This document shows, one piece after another, positions 55,299 through 60,356 of a DNA stretch of 64,000 nt (position 1 is the first letter of the stretch; every line of letters begins with the position of its first letter). Under the pieces are notes generated by a model. The model was not told where the DNA came from. It was given only the letters and a program-made list of their open reading frames with translations, and did no database searches. The stretch is from NCBI GenBank assembly GCA_039193195.1, contig JBCCWS010000001.1:133338-197337 (forward strand), given 5' to 3'. Source of the DNA: Pseudomonadota bacterium. GTDB taxonomy: Bacteria; Pseudomonadota; Gammaproteobacteria; Steroidobacterales; JBCBZW01. Position numbers and translations under genes: made by a program.

Positions 55299-57308
55299 AT
55301 GGAGACAGGTTATTTTCCCGTAATCGCGGGTGCCATCGGCATCGTCGCCGCGATCGTGCTCTACGCCACCGTGAACCGTTATCCCGCGGGTGAGGGCAAG
55401 GTGGCGTCGATCGCTGAGGCGATCCACCAGGGGGCGATGGCGTTCATCCGTCGCGAGTACATGATCCTGTGGGCCTTCGCCATCGGCGTCGCCGTGCTCA
55501 TCGCGGTCTCCGGGTTGGGGCTGGAGACGATGATCGCGTTCCTTGCAGGCGCGGCCACCTCTTCGGTCGCCGGTTGGGTCGGCATGTACACGGCCACGCG
55601 CGCCAACGTGCGCACCACCGTTGCCGCCAATCAGCACGGCGCGGGCACGGCGCTCACGATCGCCTTCTTCGGCGGGTCGATCATGGGCGTTACGGTGGCT
55701 TCCATGGGGCTGCTCGGCCTCGGGACCTTGTACCTGGTCTTCGGCGGTGATCCGGAGACCGCGCACAACTTGCACGGATTCGGTATGGGCGCGTCCGTCG
55801 TGGCCTTGTTCTCACGTGTGGGCGGCGGTATCTACACCAAGAGTGCGGACGTTGGTGCGGACCTCGTGGGTAAGGTCGAAGCAGGTATTCCCGAAGATGA
55901 TCCGCGCAACCCTGGCGTGATCGCAGACAACGTGGGCGACAATGTAGGTGACGTTGCGGGCATGGGGTCGGACATCTTCGAGTCCTACTGCGGCTCGATG
56001 ATCGCCACCATCGCCATCGCCTCGACGCTGCCGATTGCGGCTTTCGAGCGCTTCGGTCCTCAGGAGTCGTTGATGGGGCTGCCCCTTCTGCTCGCGGCCG
56101 TCGGCCTGATCTGCTCCCTGCTAGGCATCGTCATCGTGCGCATGTCTTCGGGCCGAGCGCCGGAAGTCGCCTTGCGCACGGGCACGCTGGGCGCCGCGAT
56201 CATCTTCATCATCGCGGCCTACTTTGTAGTGAGCGCGACTGGGCTCTCTGCGGGTGTGTGGCAGGCGGTGCTATCGGGCGCGATCGGCGGGATCATCATC
56301 GGCTTGGTCACCGAGTACTACACGGGTGGCCCTCCCGTACGCAAAATCGCCGAGTCCGGTCAGACGGGCCCAGCCACTGTGATGATCTCTGGCCTCGCCG
56401 TGGGCATGCAGTCGGTCACCGTGCCGCTGTTCACGATCAGCGCCATCATCTACGTGAGCAACGTCACCGCCGGTCTGTACGGCGTTGGTATCGCCGCTGT
56501 TGGCATGCTCGCTACCGTGGGCATCACCATGGCAATCGATGCGTACGGCCCGGTAGCGGACAACGCCGGCGGTATCGCAGAGATGGCGGCGATGGGTGAG
56601 GACACGCGCGAGATTACCGACTCCCTCGATGAGGTGGGCAACACCACCGCCGCCATCGGTAAGGGTTTCGCCATCGGTGCAGCCGCGCTGGCAGCGCTCG
56701 CGATCATCACCGCGTACATCGAGACCGTCGCTCACAACAAGGCGGACTTCGAGCTGCTGTTGAACGATCCAGAGGTACTCATCGGGATCTTCATTGGCGG
56801 GATCTTCCCGTTCCTCGTCGGGTCGATCACGATGACCGCAGTGGGTGATGCAGCGTTCCAGATGATCGAAGAGATTCGTCGTCAGTTCCGCGAGATTCCT
56901 GGCCTACTCGAAGGCAAGGCTGAGCCTGACAACGTGCGTTGCGTGGAGATCGCGACCACCGCAGCGTTGCAGCGGATGGCCTTGCCCGGCGTGTTGGCGG
57001 TCGGAGCGCCCGTGGTGGTTGGCTTCGCCATTGGCCCCGAGGCGCTCGGCGGCATGCTAGGCGGTGCCTTGATCACCTGCGTCCTACTGGCCCTGTTCAT
57101 GGCCAACGCTGGCGGCGCCTGGGATAACGCCAAGAAGTACGTGGAGAAGGGCAACCTCGGTGGCAAGGGATCGGATGTGCACAAAGCCGTTGTGGTCGGC
57201 GACACCGTCGGCGATCCGTTCAAGGACACCAGCGGTCCATCCATGAACATCCTCATCAACGTGATGGCCATCGTGTCGCTGGTGATCGCGCCATTGTTGA
57301 GTAGCTGA
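55299..57308 (+). CDS. hppA: membrane-bound pyrophosphatase HppA (K+-dependent type)
   Basis: A 669-residue protein with about 16 membrane helices that couples pyrophosphate hydrolysis to H+ and/or Na+ pumping. The catalytic loops [19 protein letters not shown] and [18 protein letters not shown] hold the PPi/Mg ligands. The residue after GNTT is alanine ([10 protein letters not shown]); in this family alanine here marks the K+-dependent branch and lysine the K+-independent one. Whether it pumps Na+ or H+ cannot be told. ATG 55299 follows GAGGGGAGAC. It lies before the adenylate kinase gene; both deal with products of nucleotide activation. Confidence 0.94.
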
Positions 57309-57318
57309 TAGTGCTGCG

Positions 57319-57353
57319 GTGATCGACACCTGGGCAAACCAGGTGTCGATCAC
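57319..57353. terminator. perfect 15-bp hairpin after hppA
   Basis: GTGATCGACACCTGG and its exact complement surround a GCAAA loop, 10 bp after the hppA stop. The stem is stable, but the sequence after it is GCCCCCTT without a U-tract, so it may be an RNA 3'-end stabiliser rather than an efficient intrinsic terminator. Confidence 0.5.
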
Positions 57354-57498
57354 GCCCCCTTGCTGCGGCACTCGTCCGCGGATACGAGCGGCTACGATCC
57401 GCTCACCTGCAACGCGTCTCGCTGGTTGATCAAACGACGATCTTCAGGCACCGAGCAACGCCTCGATGAGCACGCGTTCACACCCGAAACGGTTGCGT

Positions 57499-57527
57499 TT
57501 GACGCGCGCGAAAGCAATCGGTACGTT
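57499..57527 (+). promoter_or_regulatory. candidate adk promoter
   Basis: TTGACG (57499-57504), a 17-nt spacer and TACGTT (57522-57527) lie 31 bp before the adk ATG. The -35 is strong, while the -10 matches at only three positions. The 250-bp gap from hppA leaves room for an independent promoter. Confidence 0.35.
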
Positions 57528-57558: not shown

Positions 57559-59091
57559 ATGAGAATCGTGCTCCTGGGGCCGCCTGGTTCAGGCAAGGGC
57601 ACTCAAGCCAAGAAGCTCGTCGAGCATTTGGGTATCCCACAGGTCTCCACTGGCGACCTACTGCGAAGCGCGGTCGAGTCGGGCACGTCATTCGGACTTC
57701 GAGCCAAAGCAGCCATGGACGCGGGGCAACTCGTCTCCGACAGCATCGTGCTCGGCATCATAGGAGAGCGCCTCTCGCAGGACGATGCGCAGCACGGTTT
57801 CATCCTCGATGGCTTCCCCCGCAACGTCGCGCAAGCGCGTGCCTTGGACCAAATGCTCAAGGCTATGTCGATCGAACTCGACGCCGCCGTGCTCTTCGAG
57901 GTGGACTTCGACCTTCTCATGCAGCGTCTCACGGGGCGCCTTACGTGCCACAACTGCGGCGCAGTGTTCAACATCTACAGTTCACCGCCGACGTTGGAAG
58001 GAATCTGCGACAAGTGTGGCAGCACACGCCTGTCTCGCCGCGGCGACGATACGGAAGAGACCGTCAGCAACCGATTGCGCGTTTACGAGGCGCACACCAA
58101 ACCCCTGGTAGTGCACTACGAGCGCGCGGGAAAGCTCAATCGCCTGGATGCGGTCGGTGAGGTCGACTCCATCTTCGAAGATCTCACAGACCTGCTGAGC
58201 GCATTGCGCGAACGCACGGGCGCTATGTCAGTCGAGTCGACACTGACGACGGTGACCCACGACAGCGACGGGCTGCCCAATGGGCCGGCCGTGCAAGCGC
58301 TCGCCGATGCGACGGCGATGACACCAGCACCTCGGCCACCGGCTGAGGTCACTCCCATCGACGTCGGACGTCGAGCGAGCGCGAGCAAGAAGAAAGCGCG
58401 CGCCAAGCGTGGGGGATCGAGTTCCGCGGCCCGCAAGCGTGCCGCGAAACAGGCGACCGGGAAGCAGAGTGCTAGCACGAAGGCTACCCGGATTAAGGCC
58501 GCCACGGCGTCGAGTCGCAGTAAGGGCACCAGTGCCCGTGCTGCCGGCGCCGAAAAGGCGGCTAGGAAGGCAGCGAAAAAGGTGAAGGCAAAGACTATGG
58601 CGGCAGAAACCCCAAGCGATGAGCCTGCTGCCGAGACGACGACCAAGGCGTCGACGTCCGGCCCAGGCAAGAAGAAGGCGAAGAGGAAGACAGCAGCGAA
58701 GAAGAAAGCGGCTGGCAAGAAGAAGACGGCAAGCAAGAAAAAGGCTAGCAAGAAGAAAGCTGCGTCGAAGAAGAAGGCCACCACGAAGAAGAAGGCGGCT
58801 AGCAAGAAGAAGGCTGCGTCGAAGAAGAAGGCAGTCAGCAAGAAGAAGGCGACTTCCAAGAAGAAAACGGCGAGTAAGAAGAAGGCCGCTTCGAAGAAGA
58901 AGGCGGCTGGCAAAAAGAAAGCAGCTAGCAAGAAAAAAGCAGCTTCGAAGAAGAAGGCGGCGGCCAGCAAGAAGAAGGCAGCTTCGAAGAAGAAAGCAGC
59001 CAGCAAAAAGAAGGCCGCTTCCAAGAAGAAGCCCGCGGCCAAGAAGAAGACAGCCGCGCGCAAGAAGGTCAGTCGTCGCAAGAAGCGCTAG
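57559..59091 (+). CDS. adk: adenylate kinase with long histone-H1-like Lys/Ala tail
   Basis: A 510-residue protein; ordinary Adk has about 214. Residues 1-217 are a complete adenylate kinase: P-loop GPPGSGKGTQAKK at 8-20, STGDLLR, GFILDGFPRNVAQA and DDTEETVSNRLRVY, with a zinc-type lid (CHNC...CDKC). It makes 2 ADP from AMP plus ATP. From about 225 a linker leads into an Ala/Lys-rich region. Residues about 370-510 contain about 21 KKK triplets separated mostly by AAS, resembling histone H1, AlgP and bacterial H1-like proteins. The tail should be disordered and bind nucleic acid or other polyanions (inference). It is one uninterrupted frame. ATG 57559 gives the normal Adk N-terminus. Confidence 0.92.
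   Translation: MRIVLLGPPGSGKGTQAKKLVEHLGIPQVSTGDLLRSAVESGTSFGLRAKAAMDAGQLVSDSIVLGIIGERLSQDDAQHGFILDGFPRNVAQARALDQMLKAMSIELDAAVLFEVDFDLLMQRLTGRLTCHNCGAVFNIYSSPPTLEGICDKCGSTRLSRRGDDTEETVSNRLRVYEAHTKPLVVHYERAGKLNRLDAVGEVDSIFEDLTDLLSALRERTGAMSVESTLTTVTHDSDGLPNGPAVQALADATAMTPAPRPPAEVTPIDVGRRASASKKKARAKRGGSSSAARKRAAKQATGKQSASTKATRIKAATASSRSKGTSARAAGAEKAARKAAKKVKAKTMAAETPSDEPAAETTTKASTSGPGKKKAKRKTAAKKKAAGKKKTASKKKASKKKAASKKKATTKKKAASKKKAASKKKAVSKKKATSKKKTASKKKAASKKKAAGKKKAASKKKAASKKKAAASKKKAASKKKAASKKKAASKKKPAAKKKTAARKKVSRRKKR
58660..59085 (+). repeat. tandem codon repeat encoding (A/S)KKKA units
   Basis: About 21 imperfect 15-21-bp units of the pattern GC-rich codons followed by AAGAAGAAG encode the lysine-rich end of the adk product. 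The units vary at synonymous positions, so they are selected at protein level rather than freshly duplicated. Repeats of this kind can change number by slippage. Confidence 0.8.
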
Positions 59092-59162: not shown

Positions 59163-60290
59163 TTAGAGGGTCGCAAACTCCTCGCGCAAGGAGCGCAAAC
59201 CCTCGCCGACGAATTCCCGCCGCCAGCCACGCTCGAGGCGCGTGTGATTGTGGCCGCGGGAGAATTGCTCGATATCCCGACGCGAAGCGATCGAGGTCGC
59301 GCACACGTTCTCCTGCTCGGCGAGCGAGCGTAGGTTCGCCATCAGCTTGCGCACCAGCGGCTCATCGACAGGCGTATAGCTGCGCGGCGGTTCCACCTCG
59401 TGCGCTGCGAATGGCTCACAGAGCAGTGCGAATAGCTCTTCGCCGTGACGCCGTACGACCGCGGCGGGCAGGTCGCGGTTTCTCTGCAGCGTGCGCAGGC
59501 TGTCGGGGCGCCGTTGGGCGAGGCTCAACAGCACCTCGTCCTTAAGTACCCACTGCCGTGGCTTGTCGCGTTCGAGCGCGCGCGTCTCGCGCCAGTCAGC
59601 AAGGCGCTTCAGCAGCGCAAGCGCTTCGGGACGCAGGCGTCGCGCGCCCTTCACCCGCCGCCACGCCTCGGAGGTGTCCACCTCGTACAGGTCGGGGTCG
59701 ATCAGCGCGGCGCTGTCTTCGCTCACCCAGTGCTCTCGGCCGCGCTCACGCAACTCTTCCCGCAGTTGCGCCCACACTGGGAGCAGGTAGCGCACGTCAT
59801 CGGCGGCGTAGTCGAGCTGCGCCGGATCGAGCGGTCGTTTGGTCCAGTCCGTTCGCGTGTGCGCCTTTGGCAGGGTGATCTGTTGGCGCTCTTGAACCAG
59901 ATGGGCGTAGCTCACCTGCTCGCCGATACCGAGCAATCCAGCAGCGATCTGCGTGTCGACGTAGGGCACCGGCATGACCGGCTCTCCTAGTGCGCGACGG
60001 CTCTCCGTGTGCGCAAGCTCGAGGTCCTGGCGTCCAGCGTGCATGACTTTGGTGGCCGTTGAATCGGCAAGAAACTGCCAAAACGCCCCGAGATCGAGCT
60101 CAGCGAGGGCATCGATGCACGCCACGCGAGTACCGAAGGCGAGTTGGATCAGGCAAAGTCGCGGATGGTACGTGCGAACGCGCTCGAACTCGGTGTCTAG
60201 CGCGATCTCCTCAGACCCAGCCGCATCGCTGAGCAGGTCGTCGAGCGCCAGCTGCGTTGTAATGAAATCGAAGTTCATAGGCACCGGCAT
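59163..60290 (-). CDS. rnd: ribonuclease D
   Basis: A 375-residue 3'-5' exoribonuclease, the usual RNase D size. The DEDD catalytic motifs are visible: IALDTEFERVRTY near residue 30 (motif I), KVMHAGRQDLELAH near 85 (motif II) and YAADDVRYLLPVW near 155 (motif III, Tyr-type). An HRDC domain follows (WRETRALERDKPRQWVLKDE) near 225. RNase D trims tRNA and small-RNA 3' ends. The start is taken at ATG 60290, with ATG 60278 as alternative; GGGG lies just upstream. It is convergent with adk and divergent from mpl. Confidence 0.92.
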   Translation of the reverse strand: MPVPMNFDFITTQLALDDLLSDAAGSEEIALDTEFERVRTYHPRLCLIQLAFGTRVACIDALAELDLGAFWQFLADSTATKVMHAGRQDLELAHTESRRALGEPVMPVPYVDTQIAAGLLGIGEQVSYAHLVQERQQITLPKAHTRTDWTKRPLDPAQLDYAADDVRYLLPVWAQLREELRERGREHWVSEDSAALIDPDLYEVDTSEAWRRVKGARRLRPEALALLKRLADWRETRALERDKPRQWVLKDEVLLSLAQRRPDSLRTLQRNRDLPAAVVRRHGEELFALLCEPFAAHEVEPPRSYTPVDEPLVRKLMANLRSLAEQENVCATSIASRRDIEQFSRGHNHTRLERGWRREFVGEGLRSLREEFATL

Positions 60291-60356
60291 GTGCCCCTTA
60301 GGCGTGGGCGGCGCATCTGCCGACCTCAAAATTTGTCATCATGCCGTGAGATTACC

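Follow-up and report, generated by a model that had tools for sequence, protein, structure and literature searches.

What would an adenylate kinase (Adk), a textbook soluble housekeeping enzyme, do with a long, lysine-rich C-terminal tail? The question is raised by the adk gene of the window, as we call the whole 64,000-nucleotide stretch of DNA analyzed here. The literature that we searched held no description of lysine tails on adenylate kinase. The gene occupies positions 57559-59091 of the plus strand as a single uninterrupted frame of 510 codons (510 residues in translation), and the fusion of Adk and tail reported in a preliminary description of this DNA is thus real at the level of the reading frame. 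An in-frame ATG upstream at 57466 would give a 541-residue ORF; the start at 57559 appears the likelier of the two because aligned relatives begin with MRI or MRL.

The N-terminal part has the hallmarks of a complete and catalytically ordinary zinc-lid Adk, in agreement with the preliminary description. Pfam ADK (PF00406) spans residues 5-191 (1.3e-53, 181.6 bits), ADK_lid (PF05191) spans residues 127-163 (46.6 bits), and the cut-off of the NCBIfam equivalog NF001380 (251 bits) was exceeded with a score of 277.8 bits. Alignment gave the four lid cysteines as C130, C133, C150, and C153 (either four Cys or CCCD was taken as the mark of a zinc lid). The P-loop (G7, P9, G10, G12-T15) and residues R36, R88, R123, R161, D163, D164, and R172 were invariant in 22 aligned Adks. 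The core has a pI of 5.4 and was modeled confidently by AlphaFold, with pLDDT values mostly above 90 (203 residues at 90 or higher). Its closest PDB matches are zinc-lid type Adks such as 5G3Y and 1ZIN (the latter a zinc-containing structure), which match over the full length of the core (E values of 1.2e-75 and 1.7e-66, respectively); it has the P-loop in common with them, its lid being formed around the four cysteines given above. Those chains have only 217-226 residues, whereas the window protein continues for about 295 residues beyond the core. The features of the locus are collected in Table 1.

Table 1 Features of the adk locus, in positions of the window.
Feature	Position	Strand	Basis and remarks
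hppA, membrane H+-pyrophosphatase, upstream of adk	55299..57308	+	Named from sequence; 98% identical in sister species
Perfect 15-bp inverted repeat in the hppA-adk gap, not followed by a T run	57319..57353	+	MFE -31.9 kcal/mol, z -4.9
Possible sigma-70-like promoter, TTGACG-N17-TACGTT	57499..57527	+	By eye; sequence conserved in sister species
Adenylate kinase core, aa 1-214	57559..58200	+	Pfam, NF001380, alignment, AlphaFold
Linker, aa 215-277, not lysine-rich	58201..58389	+	Translation; dN/dS 0.185 vs sister species
First tail part, aa 278-370, rich in K/R/A/S, without repeats, fast-evolving	58390..58668	+	dN/dS 0.405; pLDDT <50
KKKAAS-type repeat zone, aa 371-491	58669..59031	+	dN/dS 0.102, dS ~1.0
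C-terminal cap, aa 492-510, ending KKKTAARKKVSRRKKR, plus stop	59032..59091	+	0 non-synonymous, 5 synonymous changes vs sister species
rnd, ribonuclease D-like, convergent, downstream	59163..60329	-	Named from sequence

The 233 residues of the tail (278-510) include 85 lysines and have a pI of about 12 and a charge of about +93. AlphaFold pLDDT values are below 50 over most of residues 254-505, and the tail is predicted to be intrinsically disordered. The KKK-rich region of about 140 residues seen earlier corresponds to the repeats plus the cap (residues 371-510); 22 KKK triplets were counted in the whole protein, close to the 21 or so first given. At the DNA level the pattern encoding KKKA..KKKA was found 11 times in adk, once elsewhere in the 6.7-Mb genome, and not at all in a reversed control. 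The likeness to AlgP and histone H1 originally drawn holds for composition, the tail being long, Lys/Ala-rich, repetitive, and predicted to be disordered. Pseudomonas AlgP and PhaF likewise have a long disordered C-terminal Lys/Ala repeat tail of variable repeat number. However, AlgP carries KPAA repeats on a putative helical DNA-binding protein (PMC9239181), whereas here KKKAAS repeats are carried by a metabolic enzyme; the KPAA repeats of AlgP and PhaF are not found in the window tail, the repeats of which are nearly proline-free.

A sister species (genome G001) encodes a stop-free tailed Adk of 530 residues, 83% identical to the window protein over residues 1-499. The number of repeats differs (22 KKK triplets in the whole window protein versus 26 in the sister protein). 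Between the two genes dN/dS was 0.055 in the core and 0.20 over the whole tail (the linker and tail parts are given in Table 1), and dS was 0.7-1.0 in all parts except the last 19 codons (0.5), which had a dN/dS of 0. The repeat alignment behind these ratios is imperfect, although their direction is clear. Residues 278-370 are weakly constrained, whereas the repeats combine a dN/dS of 0.10 with near-saturated synonymous change. Hence, as proposed before, the codons vary while the protein is kept, and by this sequence comparison purifying selection acts on the tail protein rather than preserving the DNA. Synonymous divergence alongside a conserved protein rules out chance or a slippage artefact, several tailed single-contig genomes (G213, G319, G316, G228, G274, G276, and G326) rule out an assembly artefact, and tailed relatives rule out a peculiarity of the source organism.

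The tail is conserved across species, being present in the sister and in many gammaproteobacterial families. Within the order of the window, tailed Adks were found in families f1, f4, f5, and f16 and in part of f10. The preliminary description had held that a stop after the Adk domain in close relatives would speak against the fusion; such a stop was seen in the examined members of f2, f3, f7, f9, f11, f12, and f15, which have the bare Adk core, and not in the nearest relative. As many families of the order have a tail-less core, the tail can be dispensed with over long periods of evolution. In f2 an apparent match past the Adk stop was not accepted as a relic tail, because the stretch is antisense to rnd, a gene that ends about 80 bp past adk. 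In a minus-strand Adk gene of an f4 genome (L007 of G004) the Adk frame stops just past a nine-A run at about positions 1447-1462 (GATAAAAAAAAAGACTGA), and a lysine-rich tail resumes in the -1 frame beyond the run. This could reflect a single-base error in the assembly, or else programmed frameshifting or slippage, from which both a short and a tailed Adk would result.

In a class sample of 143 gammaproteobacterial genomes, practically one per family, lysine-rich tails were found on the zinc-lid Adk subtype in 28 genomes, the window's own included, a frequency that is approximate owing to sampling biased towards long frames (one tailed genome, G321, is interrupted by a run of N). By sequence, the tails are thus spread over about 30 families of the class. 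Named records with a tailed Adk include Steroidobacter gossypii S1-65, a Lamellibrachia endosymbiont, a Thiotrichaceae bacterium, and two Natronospirales. Complete tails have medians of 185 residues, 33% Lys, and a charge of about +61. The C-terminal residue is K or R in 48 of the 49 complete gammaproteobacterial tails, a set that includes one short RG-rich extension (L221) hardly of the lysine-tail kind. The repeat unit varies by lineage (KKKV, KKAAP, KKKAT, or KKVA). Three tails (L189, L201, and L089) have a charged, helical-looking segment after or between the lysine-rich parts (e.g., QDLLKQLKAELKLVNAEITLTEKRNKTLTS in L201). In a phylogeny of 179 Adk cores, tail presence required 11 changes versus 48.7 when the labels were shuffled. 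All tails lay within one mostly gammaproteobacterial part of the tree, nearly all of them on cores with the four-Cys lid.

A separate tail was found in Alphaproteobacteria. NF010381 (PRK13808), an adenylate kinase model of 335 residues, was passed at its cut-off in 10 of 398 genomes of the phylum, all from a single family, f197, which evidence suggests to be Bradyrhizobium and relatives; the window protein scored 195 bits, below the cut-off of 426. The f197 proteins share with the window protein a C-terminal lysine/alanine-rich tail (about 100-120 residues, mostly ending KKVTKKRAKR), but their Adk is lidless and that of the window has the zinc lid. Constraining all lysine-rich Adk tails to one clade was rejected (AU test, p=0.0007), ruling out a single origin. 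The phylogeny therefore indicates that such tails arose at least twice, on the zinc-lid Adk and independently on an alphaproteobacterial lidless Adk. A recurrent, repeatedly gained tail on an enzyme of this kind makes the positioning of adenylate exchange on nucleic acid a testable matter.

A tail that is under selection and evolved at least twice suggests that Adk is anchored to DNA, to RNA, or to some other polymer of negative charge. We propose that the tail would bind polyanions without sequence specificity, nucleic acid first (nucleoid DNA or RNA), and that the tethered Adk would put a share of the 2 ADP <-> ATP + AMP exchange beside the nucleotide-using processes on DNA or RNA. Polyanion binding is what the composition of the tail and precedent would predict: in earlier studies to which PMC9239181 refers, the AlgP KPAA tail binds DNA in vitro, and Streptomyces TopA gains processivity from its lysine repeats (PMC7398561). 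By elimination and precedent a nucleic acid, either DNA or RNA, is the most likely ligand, and we give binding of nucleic acid by the tail an even chance. The high charge of the tail, purifying selection, recurrence in about 30 families, the independent gain in f197, the occurrence of the tail on the sole Adk of 10 genomes, and its retention in genomes lacking polyphosphate kinases all argue for a tether, whereas absence of the tail from many families of the order and the weak constraint on residues 278-370 argue against it. The consequence that adenylate control is local would follow from tethering. The full proposal, that Adk is tethered to nucleic acid in a large share of the Gammaproteobacteria and independently in Bradyrhizobium-like Alphaproteobacteria, such that the nucleoid or RNA, rather than the free cytosol, is where adenylate balance is set, is more tentative and somewhat short of even odds.

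The other two lysine-rich proteins found in the source genome also favor a tether, in that they act on DNA and on RNA polymerase. TopA (L257, contig C2) ends in KKKAASKKKTTSKKKAASKKK, in which KKKAASKKK is the Adk tail unit, and a DksA homologue (L258, contig C4) is extended at its N terminus by about 100 KKKA-rich residues. The TopA proteins of Streptomyces and of the source genome resemble the window protein in having C-terminal lysine-rich repeats on an enzyme. However, a tail that binds DNA makes ready sense on TopA, an enzyme of DNA, whereas Adk works on free nucleotides. As to copying between the TopA and Adk tails at the codon level, codon identity was 0.56 against an expected 0.46, over 32 residues only. 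Lysine-rich TopA tails were present in 13 of 37 genomes with a tailed Adk versus 22 of 33 with an untailed Adk. This lack of positive association counts against the tether and gives no support to a genome-wide regime in which a common nucleoid cause would join the two tails. Among the TopA C-termini compared (L259-L328), those of the window's order mostly have lysine-rich tails replacing the zinc ribbons, and those of other sampled gammaproteobacterial families mostly have zinc-ribbon ends.

Polyphosphate, which the preliminary description had listed beside DNA and RNA, is an unlikely anchor. In such a scheme the tail would dock Adk on granules and complete ATP regeneration with PPK1, or with PPK2 acting on AMP or ADP. 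AlgP, with its comparable tail, localizes to polyphosphate granules and needs its KPAA tail for their even spacing (PMC9239181), the E. coli proteins YihI and RNase R bind polyphosphate through lysine-rich stretches (PMC12345225), and the source genome encodes both PPK1 and PPK2. The neighboring hppA and pfp genes hint at a pyrophosphate economy, but the same adjacency accompanies untailed Adks: in most gammaproteobacterial relatives adk lies next to a divergent pfp gene, which encodes PPi-dependent phosphofructokinase and on the far side of which hppA is often found, whether the Adk is tailed or not. Moreover, PPK1 was absent from 11 of 40 tailed versus 4 of 40 untailed genomes (p=0.08), a direction opposite to that expected of a polyphosphate anchor. 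Both kinases were absent from 8 of the 40 tailed genomes (G023, G216, G265, G276, G288, G304, G318, and G326; of these, G276 and G326 are one-contig genomes) and from 3 of the 40 untailed. Because of these eight genomes polyphosphate is disfavored as a universal ligand and, barring an unknown synthase, probably does not explain the tail in general. Nor is the repeat zone a PASK polyphosphate-binding motif, which is acidic as well as Ser-/Lys-rich, since residues 371-510 lack Asp and Glu.

We also doubt that the tail is a passive low-complexity extension, grown by slippage of lysine-rich repeats and of weak benefit at most (solubility, heat or salt tolerance, or crowding). Such an origin would accord with the variable repeat number between the sister species, the change of unit between lineages, the many families that lost or never had a tail, and the occurrence of the same unit in the source genome's TopA. 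Against it stand the low dN/dS of the repeats at near-saturated synonymous change, the identity of the last 19 residues between the sister species, the strong positive charge that about 30 families retain although the sequence has been replaced, and the independent gain in Alphaproteobacteria.

The first statement, of a tail on an essential enzyme, needs a qualification: the source genome also encodes a second, lidless Adk of 189 residues (contig C49), and the sister likewise has a second, short Adk, whereas the tailed protein was the sole ADK match in each of 10 further genomes of the order that have a tail (G016, G019, G029, G031, G032, G041, G052, G047, G178, and G117). Beyond the order, one or two additional Adks are frequent in genomes with a tailed Adk; in the class sample a further Adk was present in 16 of 27 tailed versus 1 of 16 untailed genomes of the same clade (p=0.0009, hand-counted). 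These counts, as if the tailed form were specialized, together with the charge density of the tail and the studied chemistry of RNA-peptide coacervates (treated in PMC8979813), would fit a polylysine tail that gathers ATP and ADP or coacervates with RNA and nucleotides, altering kinetics rather than location, but most tailed genomes in the window's order have the tailed Adk only, and we consider this improbable.

The local gene order is hppA and adk in the same direction, rnd convergent with adk, and then mpl on the plus strand. The promoter candidate upstream of adk fell below the threshold of a consensus promoter scan, which gave no match at its position. The sister species retains the stem of the hairpin between hppA and adk: an A-U pair is replaced by G-C in a compensatory change, and there is a G-U pair.
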